Shown piece by piece: positions 8,993 through 29,185 of a DNA stretch of 34,699 nt. The position numbers and the translations under genes were made by a program. Within the stretch, counting starts at the first letter, position 1. Each line of letters opens with the position of its first letter. The notes under the pieces are model-generated. The model was not told the DNA's origin. It saw only the letters and a program-made list of their open reading frames with translations, and did no database searches. Source of the stretch: Steroidobacteraceae bacterium (GTDB taxonomy: Bacteria > Pseudomonadota > Gammaproteobacteria > Steroidobacterales > Steroidobacteraceae); contig JANWKL010000153.1 of the NCBI GenBank assembly GCA_025451375.1, forward strand, positions 1 through 34,699, read 5' to 3'.

Positions 8993-9003
8993 GGCGTGTC
9001 CTT

Positions 9004-9411: not shown

Positions 9412-9414
9412 GGA

Positions 9415-9996: not shown

Positions 9997-10055
9997 GCCG
10001 TGATGCTACGTGCATTCGCGCGGCGAGGCGATCGTACGGAGGCGATCGCGTTATC

Positions 10056-10604: not shown

Positions 10605-11185
10605 CCGCGCTCGCGATATCCAACGTCGTACTGTGGGTCCTGGTGGTGGCGCTCGCGGCGGTGGTGCTGGCCCTCACGCGCCAGCTCGGCGTCCTGCACG
10701 AGCGCATCGCGCCCGCCGGCGCGCTCATGCTCAACCGGGGCCTTACCGTCGGTGAGCCCGCGCCGCTGCTTGAGGTCACGGACCTGGCGGGCCGGGCCGT
10801 GACGATTGGCGCGCCGCGAGATGACGGCCGCAGCACGCTGCTCCTGTTCGTGTCGCCGACCTGCCCGGTATGCAAGACGCTGTTGCCGGCGGTGCTCTCG
10901 AGCAGGAAGGACGAGCGCGGCTGGCTGGATGTCTTGCTCGCCAGCGATGGCGATCTTGCGCAGCAACGCGCCTTCGTCCGCGATCAGCGTCTGGAAGCCG
11001 TGCCCTATATCGTCTCCGGTGCGCTCGGTCTGGCCTTCCAGGTTGGCCGGCTGCCGTTCGGGGCGCTGCTCGATGAGCACGGCATCGTGCGTGCGCGCGG
11101 GCTCGTCAACTCGCGTGAGCATCTCGAGAGTCTGTTTGAGGCGAAGCGTCTGGGCGTCGCTTCGCTGCAGGAGTATTTCTCATGA
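10601..11185 (+). CDS. mauD: MauD-like thioredoxin-fold protein
   Basis: A 194-residue protein anchored by an N-terminal membrane helix (about 5-25). The helix is followed by the very MauD-like stretch LTRQLGVLHERIAPAGALML and a thioredoxin-fold domain with the redox motif CPVC (Cys88, Cys91) in FVSPTCPVCKTLLP. MauD acts in the periplasm in forming or sorting the six disulfides of the methylamine dehydrogenase light chain. The close match in the linker makes MauD a better call than general TlpA/ResA. The start is GTG 10601, set by the GTGA overlap with the upstream gene. Its own TGA overlaps the ATG of the methyltransferase (ATGA). The later cis-Pro region is AVPYIVSG. Confidence 0.85.
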   Translation: MTALAISNVVLWVLVVALAAVVLALTRQLGVLHERIAPAGALMLNRGLTVGEPAPLLEVTDLAGRAVTIGAPRDDGRSTLLLFVSPTCPVCKTLLPAVLSSRKDERGWLDVLLASDGDLAQQRAFVRDQRLEAVPYIVSGALGLAFQVGRLPFGALLDEHGIVRARGLVNSREHLESLFEAKRLGVASLQEYFS

Positions 11186-11817
11186 ACGACCCGACAGCCC
11201 TCGACCAGGCGGTGCGCACGGTGCTCGAAGACTACGAGGCGCGCGCGGAGCGCGAAGAGAAGGTGTGGAGCACGCTCTCGAGTGAGGAAGCTGCGCGGCG
11301 ACGCGATGAGATGCTGCTGCCGGTGGGCCGCGCGACCGGAACGTTCCTCAATCTGCTGGTGAAGTCCGGGGAGGCGCGCCGGATCCTGGAGATTGGCAGC
11401 TCCTACGGTTATTCCACGACCTGGCTGGCCGAAGGGGCCCGGGCGGTAGGCGGCAAGGTCACCTCCCTTGAGAACAAGGTGGAGAAGACCGAGTACGCCA
11501 GCGCGCAGCTGGCGCGCGCCGGGCTGAGTGAATACGTCGAGTTCGTGATCGGCGATGCGCTCGCGAGCATCAGGACGCTCGCGGGACCATTTGACCTGGT
11601 GCTGATCGATCTGTGGAAGGATCTGTACGTGCCGGTGTTCGAGCTCCTGTATCCGAAGCTCGCTCAGGGCGCGATCGTGGTGGCCGACAACATGCTGCAA
11701 CCCGAGAGCGCGCGGATACACGCCAGGGCGTACCGCGAGCGCGTGCGCGTGGCGCGTGATGTCACTTCGGTTCTCCTCAGCATCGGCAACGGCATCGAGG
11801 TCAGCCGCTTTCAGTGA
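11182..11817 (+). CDS. class I SAM-dependent O-methyltransferase (COMT/YrrM-like)
   Basis: A 211-residue cytoplasmic methyltransferase of the catechol/caffeoyl-CoA O-methyltransferase-like family. SAM motif I is ILEIGSSYGYSTTWLA (about residues 68-83). The acidic residue after the second strand is in TSLENK, and the family LVLIDLWKDLYVPVFELLYPKL block follows at about 139-160, then GAIVVADNML. Typical members have Asp-Ala-Asp-Lys at the metal site; here it reads Asp-Leu-Trp-Lys, so metal dependence or substrate may differ. It is coupled to mauD by a 4-base overlap and is the last gene of that operon. Its 3' end overlaps the convergent AlaX gene by 17 bases. The substrate is unknown. Confidence 0.85.
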   Translation: MNDPTALDQAVRTVLEDYEARAEREEKVWSTLSSEEAARRRDEMLLPVGRATGTFLNLLVKSGEARRILEIGSSYGYSTTWLAEGARAVGGKVTSLENKVEKTEYASAQLARAGLSEYVEFVIGDALASIRTLAGPFDLVLIDLWKDLYVPVFELLYPKLAQGAIVVADNMLQPESARIHARAYRERVRVARDVTSVLLSIGNGIEVSRFQ

Positions 11818-12520
11818 GGATGATCTCGACGCGCTTGTTGTGCTTGCCCTCGCTGCGCACCCGCACCACGCGGATGGCTCCGATCTCACCGATGTTCGCG
11901 ACATGCGTGCCGCCACAGGGCTGCAGGTCAATCCCTGGAATCTTGAGCAGGCGCACCCGGCCTGCTCCCCGCGGCGGCGCCACGCTCATGGTCTTGACGA
12001 GCTGCGGCTGGGCATCCAGTTCGGCGTCGCTGATCCAAGCGGTCTCGGTTGCCACCCGCGATGCCACCAGTGAGTTGGTTTCCATTTCGATGTGCGCGGC
12101 GTTCAGCAGCGCCAGCTCGATGTCGAAGTCGAGGCGCGCCTTGTCCGGGGAGATGTTGCCGCCGGTGACCGGCGCGCGGACCACGCACGACATGAGATGC
12201 AAAGCCGTGTGCAGACGCATGAGGCGGTAGCGTCGCGGCCAGTCAATCGTAAGTTCCACCTCGTCTCCGGTTGCCGGCAGCACGCTGCCCGGCGCCGGCA
12301 GATGCAGCACGTCATCGGAGCCTTCGCCCTTACGGGTGTCGGCGATTGTGATTCGCCGTCCGTCCGCCAGGCGCAGCACGCCGGTGTCGCCGGCCTGACC
12401 GCCGCCCTGCGGGTAGAAAATGCTGCGATCGAGCCCGATCCCCCGCTCGCTGACCCGGGTCACGCGCGCGCTCGCGGTGCGCAGGTAAGCATCGTCGCGG
12501 AACAGGAGGGCGGTACTCAT
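11801..12520 (-). CDS. alanyl-tRNA editing protein AlaX (AlaX-M type)
   Basis: A 239-residue stand-alone homologue of the AlaRS editing domain, which hydrolyses Ser-tRNA(Ala) (and Gly-tRNA(Ala)) in the cytoplasm. The zinc site is complete: His104 and His108 in RLHTALHLM, and Cys202 and His206 in PCGGTHVANIGEIG. The glycine-rich FYPQGGGQAGDTG motif at residues 35-47 marks the medium AlaX class. The ATG at 12520 is chosen over a longer reading to 12814 because it has AGGA 7 bases upstream. The longer reading would also run antisense into the PhzF gene. It diverges from phzF-like gene with 42 bases between starts, and its 3' end overlaps the methyltransferase gene by 17 bases. Confidence 0.93.
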   Translation of the reverse strand: MSTALLFRDDAYLRTASARVTRVSERGIGLDRSIFYPQGGGQAGDTGVLRLADGRRITIADTRKGEGSDDVLHLPAPGSVLPATGDEVELTIDWPRRYRLMRLHTALHLMSCVVRAPVTGGNISPDKARLDFDIELALLNAAHIEMETNSLVASRVATETAWISDAELDAQPQLVKTMSVAPPRGAGRVRLLKIPGIDLQPCGGTHVANIGEIGAIRVVRVRSEGKHNKRVEIILTESG

Positions 12521-12562
12521 GGTGTGTGGTCCTGCAAGTGGCGCGCTAGAATCCGACGAGCC

Positions 12563-13405
12563 ATGACAACCCACGCCTACCGGATCGTCAATGTCTTCAC
12601 CGAGGGACGCCGCACTTTGAGCGGCAATCCGTTGTGTGTGTTCGAGCGCGGCCAGTCGCTCGATGAGGCGACCATGCAGGCCCTGGCCCTGCAGTTCAAT
12701 CTCTCCGAGACGACTTTCATCCTGCCTTCCGAACGCGCCAATGCGCGGGTTCGGATCTTTACGCCACGCTTCGAAATGCCCTTTGCCGGCCACCCGACCC
12801 TGGGCACGGCGCACGTGTGTCGCGCGCTTGGATTGGGCGGTGAGCGACTCACCCTCGAGATGCAGGCGGGCGTGATCGCCGTGCGCGCGCTTGATGATCG
12901 GTGGACCTTGCAGGCCAATGCGCCGACCTGGCGCGAGGTCGCAGGTCCCCGGGCGCTGCTGGCGGGGATGCTCGGTGTTGCAGAACGGGATCTCGCGGAG
13001 CGGCCGCTGTGGGTGAATGCGGGCCGCGAGCAGCTGATCGTGCCGCTGACGAGCGAGGCGGCGGTGCGGCGCGTGAACGTGCAGGCGGGACTGCTCGCGG
13101 AGCTCAAGAGCATCGAGGGACAGAGCATGGTGTACGTGTTTGCCGCCGCCGGCAGCGCCACCCTGGCGCGCTTCTTCTTTCCGGTGGGCAACTCGGTGCG
13201 GGAAGATCCGGCCACCGGCTCAGCGACCGCGAATCTCGGCGGCTGGTGTCTGGCGATGGGGCGGACGCTCCCCTGTGAGTTCGATCTCTCGCAGGGAGAG
13301 TACACCGGACGGCCCTCGCAGCTGCGCCTGCAGGTTGATCAGGAGCGCCGCATATTCGTGAGCGGTGAGGTCATCGAGATCGGCCGCGGCAGCATCACCC
13401 TGTGA
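12563..13405 (+). CDS. PhzF-family isomerase/epimerase-like protein
   Basis: A 280-residue protein of the PhzF/DapF-fold family. The catalytic glutamate is Glu49 in FNLSETTFIL. Other family blocks are RIFTPRFEMPFAGHPTLGTAHV and, near the C-terminus, VREDPATGSATANLGGW. PhzF itself isomerises dihydro-hydroxyanthranilate in phenazine synthesis. No other phenazine genes are here, so a general PhzF-like isomerase is the safe call. The ATG at 12563 is used; the same frame is open upstream only as antisense of AlaX. The stop overlaps the GTG start of the HAD gene by four bases, so the two form an operon. Confidence 0.92.
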   Translation: MTTHAYRIVNVFTEGRRTLSGNPLCVFERGQSLDEATMQALALQFNLSETTFILPSERANARVRIFTPRFEMPFAGHPTLGTAHVCRALGLGGERLTLEMQAGVIAVRALDDRWTLQANAPTWREVAGPRALLAGMLGVAERDLAERPLWVNAGREQLIVPLTSEAAVRRVNVQAGLLAELKSIEGQSMVYVFAAAGSATLARFFFPVGNSVREDPATGSATANLGGWCLAMGRTLPCEFDLSQGEYTGRPSQLRLQVDQERRIFVSGEVIEIGRGSITL

Positions 13406-14133
13406 ACGCACCGCCCGTGAAGCTCACTGATTTCAAGGCGCTCACGTTCGACTGTTACGGGACGCTCATCGACTGGGAGACGGGCATCCTGGCGGCTCTT
13501 GCGCCGCTGCTGCGCACGGGCGGGGCGCCACGTGCGAGCGAGGCGGTGCTGGCCGAGTTTGCAAAGCAGGAGTCGGCGCAGCAGGCGGCGACCCCGGGCA
13601 TGCTGTACCGCGATCTCCTGGGCGAGGTGCATCGACGTCTCGCGCGCGAATGGCGGCTGAGCCTCCCGGACGCCACCCACGTGGCTTTCGGCAACTCAGT
13701 GCCGCAATGGCCGGCATTCCCCGACACAGCGGCCGCGTTGCAATACCTCGGGCGTCACTACAAGCTCATCGTTCTCTCGAACGTCGATCGCGACAGCTTC
13801 GCCGCCAGTAATAAAAAGCTGGGCGTTGAATTCGACGCCATCTGCACCGCGCAGGACATTGGCGCGTACAAACCCGATCCGCGCAACTTCCGCTACCTCA
13901 TCGACGCGGTAGCGAAGCTCGGGATCGACCGGGGACAAATCCTGCACACCGCCCAGAGCCTCTACCACGACCACGTACCGGCGAAGGCCGCGGGACTGGC
14001 GACCGCGTGGATTGATCGTCGTCGGCAGCAGGACGGCTGGGGCGCAACGCTGCCACCGGCTGGCAAGCCCGGCTTCGACTTCCGCTTCGCAAGTCTCAAG
14101 GACATGGTCGACACGCACCGCGCACTGGACTGA
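13402..14133 (+). CDS. HAD-superfamily hydrolase (haloacid dehalogenase type II-like)
   Basis: A 243-residue cytoplasmic hydrolase. HAD motif I is TFDCYGTLIDWE with nucleophile Asp17. Motif II is LIVLSNVDR (Ser126, Asn127). Motif III Lys157 sits in GAYKPDPRNF. The fourth region, HTAQSLYHDHVPAKAAGLATAWIDR, follows the L-2-haloacid dehalogenase layout. The Ser-Ser-Asn stretch found there in true dehalogenases reads differently here, so it may be a phosphatase of this subgroup, not a dehalogenase. The GTG start overlaps the PhzF-like stop (GTGA). The stop is followed by a 280-base gap before the second receptor. Confidence 0.87.
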   Translation: MNAPPVKLTDFKALTFDCYGTLIDWETGILAALAPLLRTGGAPRASEAVLAEFAKQESAQQAATPGMLYRDLLGEVHRRLAREWRLSLPDATHVAFGNSVPQWPAFPDTAAALQYLGRHYKLIVLSNVDRDSFAASNKKLGVEFDAICTAQDIGAYKPDPRNFRYLIDAVAKLGIDRGQILHTAQSLYHDHVPAKAAGLATAWIDRRRQQDGWGATLPPAGKPGFDFRFASLKDMVDTHRALD

Positions 14134-14413: not shown

Positions 14414-17182
14414 ATGATGAAGCCTAATCCGAAGATCGCCGCGGCCGTGGCGGCCATACTGAGTGCGTCGAGCACCGCAATTGTCTATGCGCAGCAGGCC
14501 CCTACGGCCCCTGCCGCCACGGGGAACGAGCTGGCGGAGGTGGTCGTCACCGCGCAGCGCCGCTCCGAGAACCTGCAGGACGTGCCGATTACGATCCAGG
14601 CGATCAGTGGTCAACAACTGCAGCAGCTGAACGTCGTGTCTTTCAATGATCTGCTCAAGTACACGCCGAACGTGACCTTCAGCGGCAACGGCCCGGGCAC
14701 CGGCAACATCTTCATGCGCGGACTGGGCGGCGTGGGTTCTGGCAACCAGTCACAGTCGACCACTGCGCCGTTCCCGAACGTGGCGTTGTATCTGGACGAC
14801 CAGTCGATGCAGTTCCCGGCGCGCAACAATGACGTCTACCTGATCGACATGGAGCGTGTCGAAGTGCTCGAGGGTCCGCAGGGGACGCTCTTCGGCGGCG
14901 GCGCGCAGGCAGGCGCGATTCGTTACATCACCAACAAGCCGCGGCTGAACGCGGTCTCGGGCGACGTCAATGCCGCCTATGGCATCACCGCTCACGGTGA
15001 CCCGAATACCGCGCTCAATGCGGTGCTAAACGTCCCGCTGTCCGACCGGTTCGCATTGCGCGGGGTATTCTTCTCGGAGCGCCGCGGCGGCTACATCAAC
15101 AACGTTGCCAGCACGATCGGCTATCTGCCCGGTACACCGCCGCACGACCTGGGAGGAAATCCGACCGCCAACAACGGCGCCCTGCAGGCAAGCAACACCA
15201 ATAGCGTCGACTACCAGGGCGCGCGTCTCTCGGCGCTGTGGAAGATCAACGACGACTGGGACGTGCTGCTGCAACAGAACTATCAGAACCTGCAGGCGGA
15301 CGGTTATTTCTACGCCTACCCGGTGGGCACCGACGGCAATGCCCTGCCCAAGTACGACATCACCGCCTTCGCGCCGGCGTTCAACAAGGATCGCTACGAG
15401 AGCACGGCCTGGACTTTGAACGGCAAGCTGAGCGATATGCTGAGTATGGTGTACACCGGCAGCTACATGGTCCGTAACATCGACGGGCAACAGGACTATT
15501 CCAATTACATGCGCAGCGCGGTTGGTTCCTACTACGCCTGCATCGGTACCGGCGCCGGATATTTCAACTCGGGCGCGAAGCATTTCCCGGGGCCATATCC
15601 CGGCCTGGCGGGCTCGCCGCTGCAATGCACCTCGCCGGTCGGAAGCTGGCGCGACATAGTCCGTAACACCCACCAGAGCCACGAGTTCCGGCTGAGCACC
15701 AATGCCGACTACCGCCTGCGCGGCCTGGTCGGGCTGTATTGGGAGAAGTTCGTCATCAACGACAACCAGATGTTCAACTACCTGGGCATCCCGCAGTGCA
15801 GCCCCGCCAATCTTGCCGCTGCCGCGGCCGGTGGGCCGAGCTGTCTGTCGGCCGTGGGACCGGAACCCGGATCCTTTGCGACCGACCCCTCCCTGCGCCT
15901 GAACACGAACACGGCCTTCGGCGAAGACGAGCAGCGCGGCTACAAGCAGAAAGCCTTGTTCGTGTCGGCCGACTTTGACCTGATCCCCAAGGTGTTGACG
16001 GCAACCGGTGGCGTGCGCTTCTACCACTATGACGAATTCGAGCACGGCTCGGAGTACTACAGCGAAAGCACGAGCCCGCTGGTGGTAAATCACGCCAATG
16101 GTGCTTGCACCGCAGCCGGGGCCTGCGGCTTTCCCATCAACCTGGACAAGAACGAGAGCGGCCATCGCTTACGCGGCAATCTGACCTGGCACATCACCCC
16201 GGACATGATGGCCTACTACACCTACTCGGAAGGGTTCCGTCCGGGTGGCTTCAATCGCACCTCCTCGCTGCCGGGCCTGCCGCCCTCGCTTAAGGGGGTG
16301 GCGACGTATTGCGGCGGCCCGATCTCCGGTGTACCGCAGGACAAACTGGACCCGAGATGTGCCGTCGGCGGGAGCCTCTTCGGGCTCAACACCACGCAGT
16401 TCAACAAACCGGCGGGCTACAGCTCTGACAATCTGAAGAACAACGAGATCGGCATCAAGAGCGAGTTCTTCGAGCATCGGCTGGTCTTGAATCTGTCCGG
16501 TTACATCATGAAGTGGAGCGACATCCAGCTGCCGCTGTTCGACCCGGTGCACCTTGGGAATACGACCTTCGATGTCAATGGGCCGAGCTACAAGGTCAAG
16601 GGATTCGAGGCACAGTTCGTGGCGCGCATTACTGACGGACTCACGGTCGAGGGTTCGAGCTCGGTGAACTCCGCCGAGCAGACGAGCGCGCCGTGTCTGC
16701 CGAGCAACCGCGCGACGGCAGGCAACCCGACCCCGATTGGTCAGTGCATAAGCGTAGTCAAGCAAACTACCTTCACAAATCCGTACGGCGTGCTCGGCAC
16801 GCGGCCGCCGTTCTCGCCACCGTGGATGTTCAACATCCGGGCACGGTACGACTGGAGCATGGCGGGCGAGTACAAGCCGTTTGCCTGGGTTGGCGCGAGC
16901 CACACCGGTCCGCAGAGCAACGAGCCGCAGAGCTTCCCTGATGGCAACCTGCCGCCGAACAGCATCAATCCGACCACGACGTATCTAAGGTACGAGATCC
17001 CCGGCTACACGACCTACGATGCGGCCCTCGGCGTTTCCAAGGATAACTGGTCGGTGCAAATCAACGGCAGCAACCTGTCCAACGAGTACGGTCCCACCAA
17101 TATCTCGTCCGGGCAGTACTTCAAGTCGGTAATCCCGCTGCGTCCGCGCGTCCTGATGGCGCAGTTCGGGTGGAAGTTCTAG
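14414..17182 (+). CDS. TonB-dependent outer-membrane receptor, copy B
   Basis: A 922-residue outer-membrane transporter, clear paralogue of the product of 4037-6778. The start at ATG 14414 (or the adjacent ATG 14417) is preferred over 14345 because CAGGGGAC precedes it and a signal peptide then begins at once (KIAAAVAAILSASSTAIVYA). The TonB-box-like stretch is EVVVTAQRR. The plug has FMRGL, VALYLDDQ and VLEGPQGTLFGGGAQAGAIR. Barrel motifs include YSEGFRPGGFNR, and the C-terminus ends FGWKF. The segment DYSNYMRSAVGSYYAC (361-376) matches the DYTNY...YYQC segment of copy A. It is followed by an intrinsic terminator and then two sulfotransferase genes. The ligand is unknown; the different barrel loops suggest it differs from that of copy A. 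Confidence 0.92.
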   Translation: MMKPNPKIAAAVAAILSASSTAIVYAQQAPTAPAATGNELAEVVVTAQRRSENLQDVPITIQAISGQQLQQLNVVSFNDLLKYTPNVTFSGNGPGTGNIFMRGLGGVGSGNQSQSTTAPFPNVALYLDDQSMQFPARNNDVYLIDMERVEVLEGPQGTLFGGGAQAGAIRYITNKPRLNAVSGDVNAAYGITAHGDPNTALNAVLNVPLSDRFALRGVFFSERRGGYINNVASTIGYLPGTPPHDLGGNPTANNGALQASNTNSVDYQGARLSALWKINDDWDVLLQQNYQNLQADGYFYAYPVGTDGNALPKYDITAFAPAFNKDRYESTAWTLNGKLSDMLSMVYTGSYMVRNIDGQQDYSNYMRSAVGSYYACIGTGAGYFNSGAKHFPGPYPGLAGSPLQCTSPVGSWRDIVRNTHQSHEFRLSTNADYRLRGLVGLYWEKFVINDNQMFNYLGIPQCSPANLAAAAAGGPSCLSAVGPEPGSFATDPSLRLNTNTAFGEDEQRGYKQKALFVSADFDLIPKVLTATGGVRFYHYDEFEHGSEYYSESTSPLVVNHANGACTAAGACGFPINLDKNESGHRLRGNLTWHITPDMMAYYTYSEGFRPGGFNRTSSLPGLPPSLKGVATYCGGPISGVPQDKLDPRCAVGGSLFGLNTTQFNKPAGYSSDNLKNNEIGIKSEFFEHRLVLNLSGYIMKWSDIQLPLFDPVHLGNTTFDVNGPSYKVKGFEAQFVARITDGLTVEGSSSVNSAEQTSAPCLPSNRATAGNPTPIGQCISVVKQTTFTNPYGVLGTRPPFSPPWMFNIRARYDWSMAGEYKPFAWVGASHTGPQSNEPQSFPDGNLPPNSINPTTTYLRYEIPGYTTYDAALGVSKDNWSVQINGSNLSNEYGPTNISSGQYFKSVIPLRPRVLMAQFGWKF

Positions 17183-17199
17183 GCGGCAGCACCCTAAGC

Positions 17200-17221
17200 C
17201 GACCCGACCGCCTGCGGGTCG
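17200..17221 (+). repeat. inverted repeat after receptor B
   Basis: CGACCCG at 17200-17206 pairs with CGGGTCG at 17215-17221, a 7-base stem with an 8-base loop, shortly after the receptor stop. No T run follows, so by itself it is not a terminator. It may protect the 3' end of the receptor message or assist the stronger hairpin 20 bases later. Confidence 0.5.
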
Positions 17222-17239
17222 CGGTGCGTTAAGATGAGG

Positions 17240-17267
17240 GGCGGACCGCAGGGTCCGCCTCTTTTTT
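17240..17267 (+). terminator. intrinsic terminator between receptor B and sulfotransferase B
   Basis: GGCGGACC (17240-17247), a GCAG loop and GGTCCGCC (17252-17259) make a perfect 8-base GC-rich stem, followed by TCTTTTTT. This is a textbook Rho-independent terminator for the + strand. It ends only 8 bases before the ATG of the next gene, and the AGG of that gene's ribosome site begins at 17268. Transcription through to the sulfotransferases therefore needs read-through, anti-termination or a start inside the receptor gene. Confidence 0.85.
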
Positions 17268-17275
17268 AGGCGCAC

Positions 17276-19339
17276 ATGGAACCCGCCCCGGTCACCACTT
17301 TCCCATTGCCAGCGAGCGCGCCAGTGACGGCGGCAACCTCCGGCGAGGCCATGCGCCTGCGCGAGCTGCTGCGGCAACAGCGCTTTGCCGAGGTGCCGCC
17401 CGCCGCCCAGGCGCTGCTCGCCGAGTCTCCCGGGCAGCGCGACGCGTTGTTGTGTATGGCGATTGCCCAGCGCTTCCTCGGGCAGGTCCCCGAAGCCTTC
17501 AACACGCTCGCGATCCTCGAGCAGCATCATCCGCGCTTCAGTCGTCTGTATGAGGAGCGCGGCCGCTGCCACGTCGCGCTGCGCCAGGGGCCGCCGGCGA
17601 TCGAGGCGTTCCTCAAGGCCGTGCACCTCAACCACGCACTCCCGGGAGCGTGGGGGATGCTCGAGGGCCTGTACCGCATGCAGGGCGAGCCGCACAACGC
17701 CGCCACCGCGGCCAGCCAGGTGGCGACACTGCGCGACCTGCCACAGGAAGTGGTCGTCGCGACCGGCCTGTTTGCAGATGGCGAGCTGGAAGCGGCCGAG
17801 GGGCTGGTGCGCGCGTATCTGCTCAAGCACGGCGATCACATCGAAGCGATGCGGCTGCTGGCCCGCATCGGCATCGCGCATAAGATCTACTTCGATCCGC
17901 AGGTGCTGCTCGCCGCGGTACTCGAGCGCGCACCCGACTATCGAGCCGCGCGCCAGGAGTACGCCTTCGTGCTCATCGAGCTGCACCGTTATCAGGAGGG
18001 CCGCCGCGAGCTCGATGAGCTCATGAAGGCTGAGCCCGAAAGCCGTGCCCTCAAGACCCTGTATGCGGCGGCGTGCGTAGGCGTCGGTGAGCACGAGGCG
18101 GCGATTGGCCTGTATCGCGAGCTGCTCGTCGGGGGACCTGCGGACTCCGAGGCGCACCTGTCGATCGGACACGCACTGAAGACGCTCGGGCAGACTCAGT
18201 CCGCGATCGACGCCTACCGCCGCGCCGCCGACTGTCGCGCTGATTTCGGGGACGCGTACTGGAGCCTCGCCAACCTGAAGACCTACCGTTTCACTGCTGA
18301 TGAACTGACGCGGATGCAGAGCGTCCTCGCCGCGCCCGCGACCGGAGTCGTCGATCGCTACCATGTGGGCTTCGCGCTCGGCAAGGCGCTCGAAGACCAG
18401 GGTGATTTTGCCGCATCGTTCCGCCACTATCAGCTGGGAAACGAGCTCAAGCGCCCCGAGTGCCGGTACCGGGCCGACCTGATCGAGAGCAACACGCAGC
18501 AGCAGATCAAGGTCTGCAGCGCGGACTTTTTCGCCGCCCGCAGCGGGTGGGGGAATGCGAGCCCTGATCCCTTCTTCGTCATCGGGCTGCCGCGCTCGGG
18601 CTCGACGCTGATCGAACAGATCCTGGCGTCGCACTCGCAGGTCGAAGGCACGCAGGAACTGCCCAACGTGCAGCAGATCGTCAGCCGCCTGCGCGGCTTC
18701 GGGCCCGAGGCGCATGAGCCGCGCTATCCGCGCATCCTCGCGAGCCTGAGCGCCGAGGATTTCCGCCAGCTGGGCGAGGAGTACCTCGCCGACACGCGTA
18801 TCTATCGCAGCGGTCGGCCCCATTTCATCGACAAGATGCCGAACAACTTCCGGCACGTGGGCCTCATCCACCTCATGCTGCCGAAGGCGCGCATCGTCGA
18901 CGCGCGGCGTGAGCCAATGGCCTGCTGCTTCAGCAACTTCAAGCAGCTGTTCGCGAACGGCCAGGAATTCACCTACAGCGTCGAGGACATCGCCCGTTAC
19001 TACCGCACGTACCTGGACCTGATGCGGCATTGGGACCGGGTGCTGCCGGGACGGGTGCTGCGCGTCTACCACGAGGATGTGGTGGATGACCTGGAAGGCA
19101 GCGTGCGGCGCCTACTGGATTTCTGCGGGCTCGAGTTCGAGCCGCAGTGCGTCGCCTTCCATGAGAACCGCCGCAGCGTGCGCACCGCGAGCTCGGAGCA
19201 GGTGCGACGGGCAATCTATCGTGACGGACTGGGACAATGGAAGAGCTTCGAGCCTTGGCTCGAGCCATTGCGGGGCGCACTCGGCGATGCGCTGAACAGC
19301 TACCGCGAAGAGCAGGACACACATGCGACCGGATCGTAA
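17276..19339 (+). CDS. TPR-repeat sulfotransferase (PF13469-type), copy B
   Basis: A 687-residue predicted PAPS-dependent sulfotransferase with N-terminal helical repeats, paralogous to the product of 1969-3984. Repeats cover about 25-410 (for example HLSIGHALKTLGQTQSAIDA). The 5'-phosphosulfate loop is GLPRSGSTLIEQILASH from Gly437. The acidic Glu in VEGTQEL follows, then HFIDKMPNNFRHVGLIHLML, the 3'-phosphate region RIVDARREPMACCF, and RVYHEDVVDDL. No signal peptide. ATG 17276 has AGG five bases upstream, directly after the terminator; an in-frame ATG at 17351 is an alternative. The 3' end overlaps the next sulfotransferase gene by 17 bases. The acceptor is unknown; the fixed place beside a TonB-dependent receptor is the main clue. 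Confidence 0.85.
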   Translation: MEPAPVTTFPLPASAPVTAATSGEAMRLRELLRQQRFAEVPPAAQALLAESPGQRDALLCMAIAQRFLGQVPEAFNTLAILEQHHPRFSRLYEERGRCHVALRQGPPAIEAFLKAVHLNHALPGAWGMLEGLYRMQGEPHNAATAASQVATLRDLPQEVVVATGLFADGELEAAEGLVRAYLLKHGDHIEAMRLLARIGIAHKIYFDPQVLLAAVLERAPDYRAARQEYAFVLIELHRYQEGRRELDELMKAEPESRALKTLYAAACVGVGEHEAAIGLYRELLVGGPADSEAHLSIGHALKTLGQTQSAIDAYRRAADCRADFGDAYWSLANLKTYRFTADELTRMQSVLAAPATGVVDRYHVGFALGKALEDQGDFAASFRHYQLGNELKRPECRYRADLIESNTQQQIKVCSADFFAARSGWGNASPDPFFVIGLPRSGSTLIEQILASHSQVEGTQELPNVQQIVSRLRGFGPEAHEPRYPRILASLSAEDFRQLGEEYLADTRIYRSGRPHFIDKMPNNFRHVGLIHLMLPKARIVDARREPMACCFSNFKQLFANGQEFTYSVEDIARYYRTYLDLMRHWDRVLPGRVLRVYHEDVVDDLEGSVRRLLDFCGLEFEPQCVAFHENRRSVRTASSEQVRRAIYRDGLGQWKSFEPWLEPLRGALGDALNSYREEQDTHATGS

Positions 19340-21572
19340 CGATCCGTGCCCGTGCGCCAGCGGGAAGAAGTTCAAGCACTGCTGCGGGGCGCTCGCGCCA
19401 GTCCCCGGGGCAGGGCCGGCCGATCCCCGCGAGATCGGCCTGCTGGTCGGCATGGTCAATCAGGGTCGTCCGCAGGAGGCGCAGGCGCGCGCGACCGCAC
19501 TGCTGCGTGCGCAGCCGGAGTCGGGACCGCTGTGGAAGGTCCTGAGCGTCGCGCTCCTGCGCCAGGGCAAGGATGCGCTGCCGGCGCTGCGCCGGGCGGC
19601 GCAGCTCCTGCCGCAGGATCCGGACGCGCACGCCAACCTGGGCTCGGAGCTGCGCGCCCGCGGGGAGTGGGGGACGGCGCTCACGAGTCTGCTGCACTCC
19701 CTCACGCTGCAGCCGCGCAACCTCGAGGCGCTCATCGATGCCGCCGATGCCGAGCGCGCGCTTGGCCGGGCGCGCGAGGCGGTCGCGCTCTACCAGCTGG
19801 CTCTGCAGATCGATCCGCGCCGCTGCGAGGCGCACAACAACCTGGGAAATGCATTCCTCGACATTGGCCAGCCGGCCGAGGCTGTTGGCTGCTACCGACG
19901 GGCGCTCGAACTGGAGCCCGACCAAGCGCAGGTGCAGTGCAATCTCGGCAATGCGCTGCGCCAGCTCGGGCAGTTCGAGGAGGCAATAACCTGCACCCGG
20001 CGCGCGCTCGCACTCGCACCGGGCCTGAGTATGGCGCACAACAACCTCGGGCTTTCGCTCGCCGGTCGGGGACGACGCGAGGAAGCCATCGCGAGCTACC
20101 GACAGGCACTGGTCCTCAACCCCAACTACGTCGAGGCACTGAATAACCTCGGCAAGGTACTGCCGGAGGTCGGCGGACGTCACGAAGCCGTGGCGCAGTT
20201 CCGCAAGGCCATCGACCTTGATCCCACGCGCGCCGAGAGCCACTGCAACCTCGGCAACGTGCTGTTCGAATTCCGACGGTCCGAGGGGGCGGAGTCCTGT
20301 TATCGGCGGGCGCTGGCGCTGGAGCCTCGCCATACAATGGCCCATGCGGGCCTGGGCTCGGCATTGCGCATGCAGCGCCGTGCCACCGAGGCAGAAGCCA
20401 GCTGTCGCGCCGCCCTGGCCATCGACCCGAACTGCGTGGCAGCACTTTCGGTTCTCGGTGAGCTACGCGCCGACCAGGGTCAATTTTCCGAAGCCGAGGC
20501 ATTGTTCCGGCAGGCGATTGCCATCGATCCGGGCTTCCCCTTCGCGTTCTACAGCCTCGCGATGAATCGCAAGATGACCGGCGACGATACCGCCTGGCTG
20601 AAGGGCACTGAAGCCTTGCTGGCAACGCCCTTGCCGCTGCGCCACGAGATCAGCCTGCGTTATGCGCTCGGCAAATACTTTGACGACATCAGGCAATACG
20701 ATCAGGCCTTCAGCAGCTATCGACAAGCTAACGAGCTGGTCAAGCGCTACCGAGTCAACTACGACCGGGCAAAACTGACTGAGCGCGTCGACCGGGTCGT
20801 CAACCATTTTACAAGCGCGTCGATTCGCCAATATCAGTCCGCCGGAGACAACTCCGAACGTCCGGTCTTCATCGTCGGCATGCCGCGATCGGGGACCTCG
20901 CTGACCGAGCAGATTCTTGCCTCCCACCCCGCAGTGTTCGGTGCCGGAGAATTGCCTTTTTGGCAAACTGCATTCGCCGCCTATGAAGCGGCAGAGCTCG
21001 AGAGCCGCGCCGGCTCGAGCCTCATACCGCACATGGCGCGTGACTATCTCAGTCGCCTGACGGCGTTATCCGGCGACGCGCAGCGTGTGGTCGACAAGAT
21101 GCCGCTGAATTTCATGAACGTCGGACTGATCTGCGCCGCGTTCCCGCGGGCCCGAGTCATCCATGTGCGGCGCCATCCGCTCGACACCTGCCTGTCGATT
21201 TACTTCCAGTATTTTTCACACCTGCACCCCTACGCGAACGATTTTAACAACCTGGCGCACTTCTACGGTGAGTACATTCGCGTCACCGCTCACTGGCGGA
21301 CCGTGCTTCCGGCGACGATGCTGCTGGAGGTTCCCTACGAGGCACTGATCGCGGATCAAGAGGGCTGGGCGCGGCGGATGGTGGATTTCATCGGTCTGCC
21401 CTGGGACCCGAAGTGTGTGGATTTTCACGAAACCGATCGCACCGTGATCACTCTCAGCAAGTGGCAGGTGCGGCAGAAGATCCATGCCTCATCGGTCGGG
21501 CGCTGGCGCCACTACGAGAAACACATCGCCCCGCTGCAGCAGCTGCTGAGCCCTGGCGCGCCGCACGGATAG
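19323..21572 (+). CDS. SEC-C zinc-knuckle / TPR / sulfotransferase fusion protein
   Basis: A 749-residue protein with three parts. Residues 6-22 (RNDPCPCASGKKFKHCCG) are a SEC-C motif with Cys9, Cys11, Cys20 and Cys21 (the third ligand position is followed by Cys rather than His), the zinc knuckle known from the SecA C-terminus, where it binds SecB and ribosomes. About ten canonical TPR units follow (residues 40-430; repeated AHNNLGNAFLDIGQPAEA-like units). A sulfotransferase domain has the phosphosulfate loop GMPRSGTSLTEQILASHP around 519-536, then VVDKMPLNFMNVGLI, and the 3'-phosphate region VIHVRRHPLDTCLSIYFQ from 612. It is more distant from the two other sulfotransferases than they are from each other. 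The ATG at 19323 overlaps the preceding gene and has AGGAC just upstream. It converges with the EamA gene, stops 4 bases apart. Confidence 0.88.
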   Translation: MRPDRNDPCPCASGKKFKHCCGALAPVPGAGPADPREIGLLVGMVNQGRPQEAQARATALLRAQPESGPLWKVLSVALLRQGKDALPALRRAAQLLPQDPDAHANLGSELRARGEWGTALTSLLHSLTLQPRNLEALIDAADAERALGRAREAVALYQLALQIDPRRCEAHNNLGNAFLDIGQPAEAVGCYRRALELEPDQAQVQCNLGNALRQLGQFEEAITCTRRALALAPGLSMAHNNLGLSLAGRGRREEAIASYRQALVLNPNYVEALNNLGKVLPEVGGRHEAVAQFRKAIDLDPTRAESHCNLGNVLFEFRRSEGAESCYRRALALEPRHTMAHAGLGSALRMQRRATEAEASCRAALAIDPNCVAALSVLGELRADQGQFSEAEALFRQAIAIDPGFPFAFYSLAMNRKMTGDDTAWLKGTEALLATPLPLRHEISLRYALGKYFDDIRQYDQAFSSYRQANELVKRYRVNYDRAKLTERVDRVVNHFTSASIRQYQSAGDNSERPVFIVGMPRSGTSLTEQILASHPAVFGAGELPFWQTAFAAYEAAELESRAGSSLIPHMARDYLSRLTALSGDAQRVVDKMPLNFMNVGLICAAFPRARVIHVRRHPLDTCLSIYFQYFSHLHPYANDFNNLAHFYGEYIRVTAHWRTVLPATMLLEVPYEALIADQEGWARRMVDFIGLPWDPKCVDFHETDRTVITLSKWQVRQKIHASSVGRWRHYEKHIAPLQQLLSPGAPHG

Positions 21573-22444: not shown

Positions 22445-23305
22445 TCAGCTCTGCGCGCGCCGGCCGCCGCGGATGAGCGTCAGCGCAATGGCGGCCGAAG
22501 CCAGCATCAGGAAAAGACTGACCGCGTTCAGTACCGGGGTGGCGCCCTCGCGCATCCGCCCGTACATCATGATCGTGAGGGGCGAGTCGCCACCGACTAA
22601 CATGAGTGTCGTATTGAAGTTCTCGAATGACATCAGGAAGGCGATCGCCGCCGAACCGATCAGCGCCGGACGCAGGTAAGGCAGCGTGATGGTCCACAGC
22701 ACCGCCGGCGCGGATGCCCCGAGGTTCAGGGCCGCATCCTCCAGGGTGCGGTCGAAGCGCTTGAGCCGCGCGCTGATGGTGAGCGTGGCAATCGCGGCGA
22801 TGTAGGAGAACTGTCCCAGGACCACCAGGGGCAGACCGGGCCGCAGAAAATCCGCCTCGATGCCGAACAGGTCGCTGCACAGCTGCGCCAGGCGGCTCGC
22901 AAACGCCAGGATCGAAATACCGAGAATCACCCCGGGAATGACCAACGGGATAAGCATGAGCATCGACAGGGCGCCCTTGCCGGGAAAGCGTGTGCGCTCC
23001 ATCAGAAACGCGTTGGCGGTGCCGAGCGCCACGGACAGGCCGGTGACCCACACGGCTACGACGCAGCTGGTCCAGATGCTGCCCAAGAGCTCGTCATCGC
23101 GGAACAGCCCGACGCGTCCGGCGGCTTCGTTGCCGAGGAACCAGTCGAGGGTGAACCCGTGCCACGGGGGCGCAGGGTAGGGCGCGTCGTTGAACGCAAA
23201 CACCGCCACCACAGCCAACGGCAGGAACAGGAACGTGAGGAACGCAACGACGTACAGCACCGTTGCGGCGCGCAGCCAGGCCGGTCGTGGCAGGGTGGGA
23301 ATCAC
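22445..23305 (-). CDS. ABC transporter permease, PotC-like
   Basis: A 286-residue inner-membrane permease of the spermidine/putrescine type. It has about six helices and the EAA loop EDAALNLGASAPAVLWTITLPYLRP, which docks to the ATPase. The N-terminal helix AATVLYVVAFLTFLFLPLAVVAVFAFND is typical of PotC/PotI. The start is GTG 23305, giving a GTGA overlap with the upstream permease stop. A longer open reading to 23461 would run into that gene and adds unlikely sequence. It works with the products of 23302-24186, 24179-25312 and 25309-26385. Confidence 0.92.
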   Translation of the reverse strand: MIPTLPRPAWLRAATVLYVVAFLTFLFLPLAVVAVFAFNDAPYPAPPWHGFTLDWFLGNEAAGRVGLFRDDELLGSIWTSCVVAVWVTGLSVALGTANAFLMERTRFPGKGALSMLMLIPLVIPGVILGISILAFASRLAQLCSDLFGIEADFLRPGLPLVVLGQFSYIAAIATLTISARLKRFDRTLEDAALNLGASAPAVLWTITLPYLRPALIGSAAIAFLMSFENFNTTLMLVGGDSPLTIMMYGRMREGATPVLNAVSLFLMLASAAIALTLIRGGRRAQS

Positions 23306-24186
23306 GCGCGCCGCATCACGTCGCTGAACCGCTGGCCGCTGATTTTTAGCCCCAGCCAGACCATGGCGGTGGACAGCGCGAGCAGCAGGAAGCCGAAGGC
23401 CGCGCCCTGTTCCCAGTTGAAGCGCGTAATGAACTGGGTGTAGATCTGTTCGGTAAACCACTGCGAGCTCTTGCCGCCGAGGAGTGTAGGCGTCAGGTAA
23501 TTGCCGAGCGTCAGCATGAACACCACGATGCAGCCGGCGGTGATGCCCGGCGCGGCATGTGGAATGACGATCTCGCGCAGGATCGACCAGCCCTTGCCGC
23601 CCAGATCATAGGCGGCCTCGATGAGGGCGTTGTCGAGGCTTTCGAGGCTGCTGACGAGCGGCACCACCATGAACAGGAGCGACGTGTACACCAGGCCCAC
23701 GAGGATGGTGGCATCGTGGTACAGCAACTCGACCGGCTCGCGGGTGATGCCAAGATGCACCAGCAGCGCCGGCAGCACGCCGGATTCTCGCAGCAGGATC
23801 ATCCAGCCGAGCGTGCGAACGGTTTCGCTCACCCAGAAGGGAATCAGGCACACGACAAACAGCAGGGCGCTCATGCGCCCGCGCGCCAGCTTCGCGATGA
23901 TCCAGGCGATCGGAAACGCGACCAGCAGGGTGAGCACGGTTGCGATCGCCGACATCAGCGCGGTCCTGACGAACACGTGCCAGTACAGCGGTTCGCCGAA
24001 GAAGGTGCGGTACTGCGCCAGGCTGGCAACGTACTCGCGCGGCGCGACGCGCTCGCGAAACGACAGCAGCGCCAGGTCCAGGTGCGGCAGGATGATCAGC
24101 GCGAACAGCCACAGCAGGGCCGGGGCGAGCAGCAGCGCCAGCAGCAGTCGGCGGTACCACACCGCTGTTATTGCGGTTTCAGGCAC
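23302..24186 (-). CDS. ABC transporter permease, PotB-like
   Basis: A 294-residue inner-membrane permease, partner of the PotC-like protein. The first helix is LLLALLLAPALLWLFALIILPHL. The EAA loop is IEAAYDLGGKGWSILREIVIPHAAPG, and TLGNYLTPTLLGG is a PotB/PotH hallmark. The GTG at 24186 is chosen, because the longer frame to 24309 lies wholly inside the ATPase gene in another frame and encodes an Arg/Ser-rich shadow. It overlaps the ATPase gene by 8 bases and the PotC-like gene by 4 bases, so translation is likely coupled. Confidence 0.92.
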   Translation of the reverse strand: MPETAITAVWYRRLLLALLLAPALLWLFALIILPHLDLALLSFRERVAPREYVASLAQYRTFFGEPLYWHVFVRTALMSAIATVLTLLVAFPIAWIIAKLARGRMSALLFVVCLIPFWVSETVRTLGWMILLRESGVLPALLVHLGITREPVELLYHDATILVGLVYTSLLFMVVPLVSSLESLDNALIEAAYDLGGKGWSILREIVIPHAAPGITAGCIVVFMLTLGNYLTPTLLGGKSSQWFTEQIYTQFITRFNWEQGAAFGFLLLALSTAMVWLGLKISGQRFSDVMRRA

Positions 24187-25312
24187 TAGCCGCGCGGGCG
24201 GGGAAGCAGATCGCCCGCTCCGGGTCGAAGGTGAAGCAGACGCGCGCGCCGACCGTAAGGTCCGAGTAGGCGCCGGTCTGCGGCAGCGCGATGCGCAGCT
24301 GCAGGCCACTGCGGGACTCGCGCAGCAGCACGACCGAGTTGGCGCCGTCGAACAGCATGCCTGTCACCTCCCCGCTGTGCGCCGTCTGGCCGGCTGGCAG
24401 TTCCGCGGGCGTTCGGCCGAGCATCGCGGCCTCGGGCCTGATGAAGGCCTCCACCGCTGCGCCCGCCGCGATCTCGCCATGCCGGCGGGCGCGCACCACC
24501 CAGCCGCCGCCCGTGTCCACCTCCACGAGCGAAGCGGTGATGCTCAACGCCTTGCCAGCCAGGCGGTTGTTGGCGCCGACAAAATCGGCGACGAACGAGG
24601 TAGCGGGGGAGTAGTAGAGTTCCTGGGGTGTGCCGAGCTGTTCGAAGCGCCCGTGATTCATCACGCCGACGTGGTCGGACAGCACCAGCGCCTCGGACTG
24701 GTCGTGGGTGATGTACACGAAGGTGGTGCCGAAGGCGCTTTGGAGCTGCTTCAGCTCGAGCTTCATGTGCTCGCGCAGCTTCAGATCGAGCGCCCCGAGC
24801 GGCTCATCGAGCAGGAGCAGCGTGGGCTCGAGCACCAGGCTGCGCGCAATTGCGACGCGTTGCCGCTGTCCGCCCGACAGCTCGTCAGTGCGCTTGCCGC
24901 CCGCACCGGCCAGCCCAACCCGCTCCAGCATGGCTTCGGCACGCCGCAGGCGCTCGGCGCGGCCCACGCCGCGACGCGCCAGCCCGAACGCGACGTTCTG
25001 CGCGACCGACATCATCGGAAACAGCGCCAGATGCTGAAATACCATATTGACCGGACGCCGGTTGGGAGCGACCTGCGCCATGCTGCGTCCGCCGATGGCG
25101 ATATCGCCGCTGTCGGGCTGGATAAAGCCGGCAATCATCCGCAACAGCGTCGTCTTGCCGCAGCCGGAGGGGCCGAGGATCGAGAAGAAACTGCCGCGCG
25201 CCACGCTGAAGGACAGGGTGTCGACCGCAACGTGCGTCGCGAAGCGCTTGCTCACGGAGCGCACTTCCAGGTCGGGTGTCGCACCCGACACGGCGATCGT
25301 GGGCGCGTTCAA
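24179..25312 (-). CDS. ABC transporter ATPase, PotA-like
   Basis: A 377-residue cytoplasmic ATPase of the spermidine/putrescine importer class. Walker A GPSGCGKTT is at 47-55, the Q-loop in MVFQHLALFP (91-99), signature LSGGQRQR at 145-152, Walker B LLLLDEP at 165-171 and the switch His203 in YITHDQ. Residues about 240-377 form the TOBE regulatory domain found in PotA/UgpC-type ATPases. Its ATG overlaps the binding-protein stop by four bases (ATGA) and its end overlaps the PotB-like start. Confidence 0.94.
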   Translation of the reverse strand: MNAPTIAVSGATPDLEVRSVSKRFATHVAVDTLSFSVARGSFFSILGPSGCGKTTLLRMIAGFIQPDSGDIAIGGRSMAQVAPNRRPVNMVFQHLALFPMMSVAQNVAFGLARRGVGRAERLRRAEAMLERVGLAGAGGKRTDELSGGQRQRVAIARSLVLEPTLLLLDEPLGALDLKLREHMKLELKQLQSAFGTTFVYITHDQSEALVLSDHVGVMNHGRFEQLGTPQELYYSPATSFVADFVGANNRLAGKALSITASLVEVDTGGGWVVRARRHGEIAAGAAVEAFIRPEAAMLGRTPAELPAGQTAHSGEVTGMLFDGANSVVLLRESRSGLQLRIALPQTGAYSDLTVGARVCFTFDPERAICFPARAASA

Positions 25313-26385
25313 TCGGCCGCCTTCACCCGATCGAGTACCTCACCCTCGATCGCCTCCAGCCCCGGCGGGATCGCCGGATACCATTTGATGTTTTTCAGGC
25401 CGTCGGGGAAGGATTCGGCGAACTGCGCGCGAACGCGCGGATCCATCAGCTGATCGGCACCCTTGGCGGCGGTGAAATTGCCGATGGATTTGGCAACCTT
25501 GGCCGCAATCTCGGGGCGCATCACGAAATTGATCCAGGCGTACGCGCCGGCGTCGTTGCGTCCGCGTGCCGGCAGCGCAAACGTGTCCATCCAGGCAATT
25601 GCACCCGAGCGCGGATTGATGAACTTGATATCCGGGTTCTCCCGGTTGAGCGCCCAGCCGCCCGAGTCCCACATCATCGCGGCGTAGATCTCACCGGTGC
25701 GCATGCCGTTGAGCAGCTGGTCCTTGTTGTCGTAGAAGAAGCGGAAGTTCGCCTTGCAGGCGGTGAGCGTCTTGCCGATCTGCTGCATGAGCGCCGTGTA
25801 CGCCTTGGTATCGCCGTACAGCGCAAAGGGATTCTTGCCCGAGGCGAGGGCGAAGGCCATGAGAGTCGGGCGCTTCAGGCGCACCGCGGTCCTGCCGCGC
25901 AGCTCGGGTTTGCATAAATCCCCGTAGTCGCTGATGCGGGTGCGTTTGGAGTTGTAGACCAGGCCCTCCGTGCCCCACACGTAGGGCAGGCCGTAGAGCC
26001 GGCCGCCGATGGTGGCGTTGGTGCGCACGGTGGCGAGGAGCTCCGGCACAAATTCATCCAGCCGCACCTTGCTGGTATCGAACGGCTTGTAGATGCCGAA
26101 CTCCTGCTGGGCGCCGAAGATGCGGTCCTGCGAGGGCTGGGCCAGGTCAAAGCCGGCGCCGCCGGTGGCACGCAGCTTCGAGATCATCTCCTCATTGTTT
26201 GAGAGCGTCACTTCGACCTGGATGCCGGTTTCCTTGCGGAACTGGGCGACGACCTCGGCGGGCACGTAGTCCGCCCAGGTAATGATCCGCAGGACCTTGG
26301 CGTTGTCGGCGCGCGCCGGAGCACCCGCAACGAGCCCCAGGACCAGCAACACCGTGAGCACGCAGCGACCAGAAATTGAGATCAT
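25309..26385 (-). CDS. periplasmic polyamine/amine-binding protein, PotD/PotF-like
   Basis: A 358-residue solute-binding protein. The start is ATG 26385, which puts a signal peptide right at the N-terminus (CVLTVLLVLGLVAGAPARA, cleavage near residue 27) and has AGGGG about ten bases upstream; a longer reading to 26436 would not. The mature part follows PotD. VLRIITWADYVP (Trp37, Tyr40) matches the first ligand strand, AAMMWDSGGWAL has Trp239, and GAIAWMDTFALPA holds Trp265 and Asp267. These match the Trp and Asp that grip the amine in PotD. The ligand is therefore probably a cationic amine, but several PotD pocket residues are changed, so spermidine or putrescine cannot be assumed. First gene of the importer operon. 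Confidence 0.9.
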   Translation of the reverse strand: MISISGRCVLTVLLVLGLVAGAPARADNAKVLRIITWADYVPAEVVAQFRKETGIQVEVTLSNNEEMISKLRATGGAGFDLAQPSQDRIFGAQQEFGIYKPFDTSKVRLDEFVPELLATVRTNATIGGRLYGLPYVWGTEGLVYNSKRTRISDYGDLCKPELRGRTAVRLKRPTLMAFALASGKNPFALYGDTKAYTALMQQIGKTLTACKANFRFFYDNKDQLLNGMRTGEIYAAMMWDSGGWALNRENPDIKFINPRSGAIAWMDTFALPARGRNDAGAYAWINFVMRPEIAAKVAKSIGNFTAAKGADQLMDPRVRAQFAESFPDGLKNIKWYPAIPPGLEAIEGEVLDRVKAAD

Positions 26386-26518
26386 GTGACAAGCGCCCCT
26401 AAGCGGTTTGGATCTTGCCGCCACGTTGACAGGCAAGTTTTTGGCGGGATAGTCTCAGTGAACGATAGCATCGCCCCATCCGCTTGTCGTCGGATCGCCC
26501 GTCGCGGGCAGCAGCGCA
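26386..26518. other. divergent promoter region between importer and phosphodiesterase operons
   Basis: A 133-base gap between the starts of two operons that point away from each other, AT-richer than the genes around it. The + strand promoter is listed separately. On the minus strand I found only a weak TTGCCT hexamer without a good partner. Shared control of both operons from here is plausible. Confidence 0.5.
26426..26453 (+). promoter_or_regulatory. sigma-70-like promoter for the phosphodiesterase operon
   Basis: A perfect TTGACA at 26426-26431 is followed after 16 bases by GATAGT at 26448-26453 (four of six matches to TATAAT). This would place the transcript start near 26460 and leave an untranslated leader of about 60 bases before the ATG at 26519. 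Confidence 0.5.
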
Positions 26519-27445: not shown

Positions 27446-27446
27446 C

Positions 27447-29087: not shown

Positions 29088-29102
29088 CTGTAGCACCGCA
29101 GC

Positions 29103-29130
29103 AGCCGGCCAAAGCCACGCCTTTGGCCGG
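29103..29130. terminator. hairpin after the phosphatase gene
   Basis: GCCGGCCAAA at 29103-29112 pairs perfectly with TTTGGCCGGC at 29121-29130 around an 8-base loop, 16 bases beyond the phosphatase stop. The A/T run sits inside the stem, not after it, so it is not a canonical T-tailed terminator. Placed between convergent operons, it probably ends or protects transcripts from both sides. Confidence 0.55.
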
Positions 29131-29149
29131 CGGAAACGGAACTACTGTC

Positions 29150-29177: not shown

Positions 29178-29185
29178 CCAATGAA

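Follow-up and report, generated by a model that had tools for sequence, protein, structure and literature searches.

We analysed a stretch of 34,699 nucleotides (the window) from a Steroidobacteraceae genome (assembly GCA_025451375.1, contig JANWKL010000153.1, here contig C153), in which a gene for a TonB-dependent receptor adjoins a gene for a sulfotransferase with tetratricopeptide repeats (TPRs). This receptor/TPR-sulfotransferase pair occurs twice, on opposite strands, with a further TPR-sulfotransferase gene behind the second copy. The features of the pairs are as follows.

1969-3984, minus strand: TPR-sulfotransferase of pair 1 (P0001, 671 aa); PF13469 at 165.8 bits (cut-off 27) and TPRs
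4037-6778, minus strand: TonB-dependent receptor of pair 1 (P0002, 913 aa); PF07715 and PF00593
5591-5605, minus strand: DYTNY motif of the pair 1 receptor
14414-17182, plus strand: TonB-dependent receptor of pair 2 (P0003, 922 aa); PF07715 and PF00593 (Pfam scan run from the upstream start at 14345)
15494-15508, plus strand: D361-Y362-S-N-Y365 motif of P0003, the proposed sulfation site, at the start of predicted extracellular loop 4
15497-15640, plus strand: predicted extracellular loop 4 of P0003 (residues 362-409), with Y374, C376 and C405
17276-19339, plus strand: TPR-sulfotransferase of pair 2 (P0004, 687 aa); PF13469 at 174.4 bits (cut-off 27) and TPRs
18569-19144, plus strand: PF13469 match in P0004, containing R440, E461 and K520
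19190-19192, plus strand: S639 of P0004, just beyond the PF13469 match
19323-21572, plus strand: second TPR-sulfotransferase, P0005, with an N-terminal SEC-C motif; PF13469 at 149 bits and SEC-C

An earlier reading of the letters alone (the sequence-only reading) had described the two pairs and taken both receptors and both enzymes to be paralogues. Our scans confirmed both pairs at these coordinates, and all the shared motifs it quoted were found in both copies. Identity between pair 1 and pair 2 was 60% for the enzymes and 49% for the receptors, and the intergenic gap between receptor and enzyme was 52 bp in pair 1 and 93 bp in pair 2. P0001 and P0004 also gave weaker PF00685 matches above the cut-off, with PF13469 as the main match. 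P0005, absent from the sequence-only reading, is a divergent TPR-sulfotransferase whose frame begins 17 nt before the end of P0004. Two further genomes of the family showed the receptor/enzyme/enzyme order of pair 2 as well, at loci L211 (second enzyme at 7406-9733) and L230 (second enzyme at 7802-10033).

The genome is a draft of 2.66 Mb (93% complete) and carries a third pair on contig C33, in the order enzyme (locus L024, 2245-4248) then receptor (4291-6840). Within the genome, P0003 was most similar to P0002 and then to the C33 receptor; among named records, the best enzyme matches came from Steroidobacteraceae metagenome-assembled genomes. Of the four PF13469 matches found genome-wide, three adjoin a receptor and the remaining one is P0005, whose gene overlaps that of P0004. 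Because this occurs with just 19 PF00593 barrel matches in the 2.66 Mb, chance adjacency in this genome is not credible, as judged from the gene counts.

Recurrence of the pair and comparison of the trees

We scanned named genomes with an alignment of the enzyme and took the best 80 loci of at least 590 confirmed relatives. These are the nearest relatives, and we therefore added 299 genomes drawn from the phylum, among them the genome of the window (the phylum draw). At the named loci, 74 of the 85 enzymes scoring above 600 bits had a receptor no more than 600 bp away, in 73 cases on the same strand, with a median gap of 82 bp. The receptor was directly upstream on the same strand in 68 cases, directly downstream on the same strand in five and on the opposite strand in one; 11 enzymes had none within 600 bp. 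Four of these 11 (L048, L058, L062 and L096) begin less than 0.9 kb from a contig end, and in three (L053, L057 and L061) a receptor lies at a distance of 1.4-2.5 kb. At L043, L056, L059 and L098 no receptor of the first class was found with the profile used, which is blind to a second, TGSR-type class treated below.

Titles of the pair-bearing records name Steroidobacteraceae, Rhodanobacter, Dyella, Novosphingobium, Erythrobacter, Maricaulis, Parvularcula, Emcibacter, Rhodothalassium, Colwellia, Alteromonas, Paraglaciecola, Woeseiaceae and Wenzhouxiangellaceae, with Novosphingobium nitrogenifigens among the named isolates. The L067 pair comes from a contig assigned to Chloroflexi in binning, which may be a proteobacterial contig placed in the wrong bin.

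In the phylum draw, the enzyme subfamily (25 genes) and the receptor clade (25 genes) were found in the same 17 of the 299 genomes. Twenty-two of the 25 enzymes and 22 of the 25 receptors were adjacent, three of these 22 pairs coming from the window's own genome, and the gaps between matched stretches, read off the coordinates, were below 320 bp. The enzymes without a listed receptor neighbour were G266:C2, G353:1424554 and G378:C33, and the receptors without an enzyme neighbour were the three lowest scorers (351-370 bits). The enzyme cut (lowest kept 567 bits, next 469) was placed after the gap in scores was visible, and the receptor clade was taken at E up to 1e-100. At the preset E of 1e-100 the enzyme profile matched in 53 of the 299 genomes, 36 of them without the receptor clade. 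Because paired genes went into both query profiles, the draw measures the coupling of two clades and not of all sulfotransferases or receptors.

FastTree distances of receptors and enzymes were correlated over 80 pairs (r = 0.91, best of 2000 permutations 0.15), a value inflated by shared species history and obtained with one receptor (L054) counted in two pairs. The agreement also held among paralogous pairs inside single genomes, with r = 1.0 in the window's genome (3 distances) and r = 0.95 in each of the family genomes G069 and G094 (6 distances each). The sequence-only reading had proposed that the two proteins act together, and that recurrent adjacency and matching topology of paired trees would bear this out; both were observed here and support it. 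The results showed that many proteobacteria carry an outer-membrane uptake receptor and an enzyme resembling the animal tyrosylprotein sulfotransferases (TPSTs) as a two-gene unit.

The receptor loop and the sulfotransferase

An AlphaFold2 model of P0003 (49 sequences, mean predicted local distance difference test score, pLDDT, 82) showed a plugged barrel with 22 strands by hand count of the DSSP list. Its best PDB fold matches were the TonB-dependent siderophore receptors Fiu, FyuA, PiuA and FhuA. By strand order in the model, residues 362-409 form the fourth extracellular loop, with pLDDT below 50 at 380-399. Extracellular loops of such receptors are usually variable. D361, Y362, Y365, Y374, C376 and C405 were 97-100% conserved across the 67 receptors of receptor-first pairs.

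The exact pattern [DE]Y[ST]xY was present in 66 of the 74 receptors linked to the enzyme at named loci. Among the 22 linked receptors of the phylum draw, Y362 and Y365 were both present in all, an acid at 361 in 20 and the exact pattern in 19, while the three unlinked receptors of that draw had Phe, Gln and Gln at position 362. Six enzyme-first receptors of this draw (L396-L401) are without the cysteines and still carry DY[ST]xY.

We compared alignment columns between 73 unlinked receptors and 100 linked ones, of which 70 came from named loci, 19 from the phylum draw and 11 from the window's genome and two others of its family. Y365 ranked first of 729 columns, present in 100/100 linked and 1/73 unlinked receptors, 14 of the latter being gapped at this column. 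Y362 ranked tenth (99/100 vs 9/73), and Phe occurred at neither position in any linked receptor. Six unlinked receptors that scored above 600 bits with the linked clade were set apart in this test; all six have both tyrosines, and counting them would bring Y365 to 7/79 among unlinked receptors. N254, W282, R615 and G337 also discriminated; the tyrosines are thus markers of the clade and may in addition mark the site. An earlier count gave the motif in 11/12 linked and 10/96 unlinked receptors; it misplaced L221 (whose enzyme reads PRAG) and included two partial duplicates (L171 and L176).

We further checked 27 genomes of the family without the enzyme subfamily, hand-picked from 120 for a weak match or none; 18 had no PF13469 match at all and nine had other sulfotransferases. 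The motif was absent from 29 of their 30 best receptor loci, and at the remaining locus (L267) the pattern lies near residue 208 of the frame, off the loop.

The AlphaFold2 model of P0004 (47 sequences, pLDDT 90.7) showed TPR-type helices to about residue 420, followed by the sulfotransferase domain. By sequence, the TPR part matched an engineered TPR protein first and O-GlcNAc transferase (OGT) next, as the best natural match; by fold, the TPR domain of OGT was the best match. With a profile of 15 catalytic domains, the seven best PDB sequences were TPSTs (E 4.2e-13 to 8e-10), followed by two polyketide-type sulfotransferases (1.5e-9 and 1.7e-9), with SULT1A1 at 0.0025. In a fold search of the PDB with the whole enzyme, the 50 matches listed were all proteins of the TPR type or with similar helical repeats, and the TPST assignment therefore rests on sequence.

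The catalytic residues of TPST1 are R79, E100, K159 and S286 (PMC5562738). In profile alignments mapped by hand, they align with R440, E461, K520 and S639 of P0004, which were conserved in 89 of 89 enzymes, P0005 among them; this conservation does not imply that they are unique to TPSTs. Judged by eye, the N termini of the enzymes lack a signal peptide and those of P0002 and P0003 have one. The genome encodes an adenosine 5'-phosphosulfate (APS) kinase, needed for making 3'-phosphoadenosine 5'-phosphosulfate (PAPS), and a cytoplasmic, PAPS-using enzyme is plausible for this reason.

Neighbouring genes and a possible ligand

Two genes flank pair 1.

301-1962, plus strand: choline dehydrogenase BetA, convergent with the enzyme of pair 1; TIGR01810 at 805 bits (cut-off 732)
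6799-7863, minus strand: AraC-type regulator on the same strand as the receptor of pair 1, ending 20 bp upstream of it

The best NCBIfam model for the regulator was GbdR (choline metabolism), at 168.9 bits and thus below the cut-off of 480. The C33 pair adjoins a dehydrogenase-GcvT fusion that resembles the sarcosine oxidase and GcvT models below their curated cut-offs. Near pair 2, positions 22445-33125 hold genes for a polyamine-type ATP-binding cassette transporter, a glutamine synthetase-like protein, an aldehyde dehydrogenase and an iron-type alcohol dehydrogenase, which suggest polyamine or amine catabolism by NCBIfam matches below the cut-offs. Between the pairs, one strand of 10056-14133 encodes MauE, a redoxin, an O-methyltransferase, an unassigned open reading frame (ORF), a protein with a PhzF domain whose listed ORF carries some 160 additional residues at the N terminus, and a HAD hydrolase.

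The genes around 70 pair loci were compared with those around 50 unlinked receptors, 3.8 kb on each side. A transporter of the BCCT family was present near 21/70 pairs and 0/50 unlinked receptors and was confirmed by Pfam (650 bits) in the one representative scanned; MarR regulators were also enriched (13/70 vs 0/50). No significant difference was seen for GMC oxidoreductases (3 vs 0), FDH/ADH (4 vs 0), SoxA (4 vs 4), dehydrogenase-GcvT (3 vs 4), MttB (3 vs 1), Rieske proteins (2 vs 1), AraC (1 vs 0) or aldehyde dehydrogenase (7 vs 3). Among ORFs of at least 130 aa, no neighbour cluster reached more than 21 of the 70 loci, the commonest being the transporter; the survey of carriers covered BCCT.

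For part of the family, a quaternary ammonium compound is a possible ligand, since those pairs adjoin transporters of the betaine/carnitine/choline type. As a guess, a cationic quaternary amine meeting a sulfotyrosine loop would be chemically sensible. Two results tell against giving this context a wider place. Most of the amine genes tested were not enriched, and amine catabolism as a general context was kept only in part. All 21 BCCT loci are among the more distant L064-L104, with controls from two genomes of the window's family; taxon is thus a confounder, and lineage may explain part of the difference.

Proposed function and its alternatives

On balance, these comparisons lean towards a functional unit of two genes, in which a TonB-dependent receptor is paired with a dedicated cytoplasmic, PAPS-dependent tyrosine sulfotransferase that probably acts on the receptor loop and would tune ligand binding. 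The sequence-only reading had offered the receptor, a secreted partner or the ligand as the substrate. The receptor appears to have the best evidence of the three because of the conserved acidic-tyrosine motif in its predicted loop. The tyrosine and an acid at -1 count among the key determinants of TPST recognition (PMC5562738), and the tyrosine pair of the loop looks like the enzyme's target. With the D-Y conserved in a receptor whose neighbour is a TPST-like enzyme bearing an OGT-like TPR groove, the two would best be read as substrate and enzyme. The TPR groove would hold the unfolded receptor precursor ahead of Sec export, and the active site would sulfate Tyr362, which follows Asp361, and perhaps also Tyr365. 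After export, the sulfotyrosines would provide extracellular loop 4 with a permanently negative, aromatic surface to which the ligand binds.

The data themselves show recurrent adjacency, matching trees, occurrence in the same genomes, TPST-type catalytic residues and a clade-specific motif of two tyrosines. However, several observations weigh against receptor sulfation. The case is drawn from sequence throughout. The motif and the enzyme travel as one linked clade, and co-occurrence cannot separate a substrate from shared ancestry plus ligand binding. In the phylum draw, three best candidates per genome were scored, which makes the copy numbers lower bounds. The acid at -1 is not specific, D361 being present in 92/100 linked and 60/73 unlinked receptors, and it is missing in 4 of the 100 linked receptors. 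Eight of the 74 linked receptors at named loci lack the exact pattern: three are cut off, three read DYAxY, one reads AYSDY, and the last, L085 (7450-9870), reads SDNAY and has lost Tyr362 with Tyr365 kept. L085 is also a natural variant useful for telling which tyrosine is modified. For five motif receptors of G069 and G094 (L209, L204, L207, L233 and L253) the retrieved flanks contained no sulfotransferase, and for a sixth (L235) they contained just a non-TPR one about 1 kb away. The genomes of the five carry the enzyme elsewhere, and in such genomes a lone motif receptor could be a substrate in trans. One of the five, L209, has a GMC-oxidoreductase-like ORF nearby. On the enzyme side, the acid-binding R102 and R285 of TPST1 correspond, by hand mapping, to Pro463 and Ala638 of P0004. 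Peptide recognition must therefore differ from that of TPST1, and we describe the enzyme as working like a TPST without filing it as one. Enzymes and receptors could not be told apart by a simple hydropathy maximum, which bears on the cytoplasmic placement made by eye.

The second receptor class also weighs against receptor sulfation. TonB-dependent receptors of the TGSR type often adjoin TPR-sulfotransferases (L239:1746-11932, L249:3554-15330 and L306-L335), up to three of them in L249, and several of these loci also hold a short protein beside the receptor, presumably of the 2OG-Fe(II) oxygenase type (2OG, 2-oxoglutarate; PF13759). TGSR loci may be a distinct multi-enzyme modification cluster. 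The pattern DY[ST]xC was found in 2 of 11 TGSR receptors, both near enzymes, in G000, G069, G094 and part of G010. In the class as a whole no tyrosine column stood out (23 linked vs 30 unlinked), and in a wider set the tyrosine of DY[ST]xC was often Phe and also occurred without an enzyme. We therefore dropped this class as convergent support, its loop tyrosine being non-discriminating.

Three other explanations were weighed. The tyrosine loop might be an aromatic cage for a cationic amine, with the enzyme sulfating the ligand after import, or a product of its metabolism (for example a choline-type alcohol), in the cytoplasm to trap or store it, which we regard as fairly unlikely. Quaternary amines are commonly bound by aromatic residues, and the BCCT transporters near 21/70 pairs, the choline dehydrogenase beside pair 1 and the dehydrogenase-GcvT fusion beside the C33 pair would suit this explanation. 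However, the catalytic domain is nearer to TPSTs (4e-13) than to SULT1A1 (0.0025), even if polyketide sulfotransferases are almost as close (1.5e-9). A small substrate also needs no OGT-like TPR superhelix, and the neighbour survey, within its scope, gave no cluster beyond 21/70. The enzyme might instead sulfate another secreted or surface partner working with the receptor, such as a small peptide, a different outer-membrane protein or a glycan. The Xanthomonas enzyme RaxST does act on a secreted peptide (PMC6637879), and the window, L211 and L230 each have a second, divergent sulfotransferase gene behind the first. Nevertheless, we consider such a partner unlikely, as the genes nearly abut and leave little room for a gene between them, and the commonest neighbour cluster is a transporter; that survey took ORFs of at least 130 aa, so a distant gene for a small peptide is possible.

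The pair could also be a cassette, co-transcribed and co-inherited for regulatory or historical reasons, with neither gene acting on the other. Joint transfer alone would yield adjacency and matching trees. However, the pair and the YxxY motif persist where the order is reversed, pairs survive repeated duplication within genomes, and both genes occur in the same 17/299 genomes, which makes a mere cassette very unlikely.

Sulfation of the receptor by its neighbour can be set beside known systems. The animal enzymes TPST1 and TPST2 are the nearest solved sequences to the catalytic domain and share its four catalytic residues, and their preference for an acid before the target tyrosine, as described in PMC5562738, fits the proposed site. 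The bacterial enzyme, whose activity is predicted, differs in its fusion to a TPR superhelix, its expected cytoplasmic location and the non-conserved R102 and R285. OGT likewise places an N-terminal TPR superhelix before a transferase domain, which is a glycosyltransferase there and a sulfotransferase here.

Bacterial protein tyrosine sulfation has been described for the Xanthomonas peptide RaxX; its tyrosylprotein sulfotransferase RaxST, modelled by the authors on human TPST2, uses PAPS and is encoded beside its substrate (PMC6637879). The likeness lies in the adjacent substrate gene, the receptor being the proposed substrate here. RaxX is described as a 60-residue precursor peptide with type I secretion in the cluster, whereas the neighbour here is an outer-membrane receptor. 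No RaxX-type peptide or RaxAB exporter was found among the window ORFs scanned or 10 annotated neighbour-cluster representatives, ORFs below 130 aa lying outside the neighbour survey.

Methanobactin operons also combine a sulfotransferase with a TonB-dependent transporter. However, MbnS is a PF00685 protein whose expected target is a peptide threonine, and MbnA/B/C accompany it (PMC3621798), in contrast to PF13469 as the main match, with TPRs, here. MbnB-type matches were absent from the window ORFs scanned, with no search aimed at MbnA or MbnB. In Sutterella wadsworthensis, the sulfotransferase gene SwASST9 lies near a TonB-type transport gene; it is an ASST gene and a single case, and the main text of that paper contains neither TPR nor tetratricopeptide (PMC10932419). 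The sequence-only reading knew of no described system with the receptor/TPR-sulfotransferase pairing, and we likewise found no description of it among the titles and abstract openings listed from the open-access literature searched.

Taken more widely, the chances seem about even that bacteria make tyrosine-sulfated outer-membrane transporters, in which a TPR-guided cytoplasmic enzyme would sulfate a surface loop of its partner and give it ligand specificity. If true, tyrosine sulfation would be a routine modification of nutrient receptors, with the pair present in 17/299 sampled genomes of the phylum. One TPR-sulfotransferase subfamily would gain a function and a testable site (Tyr362/Tyr365), and the modification would offer a handle on what these receptors import.

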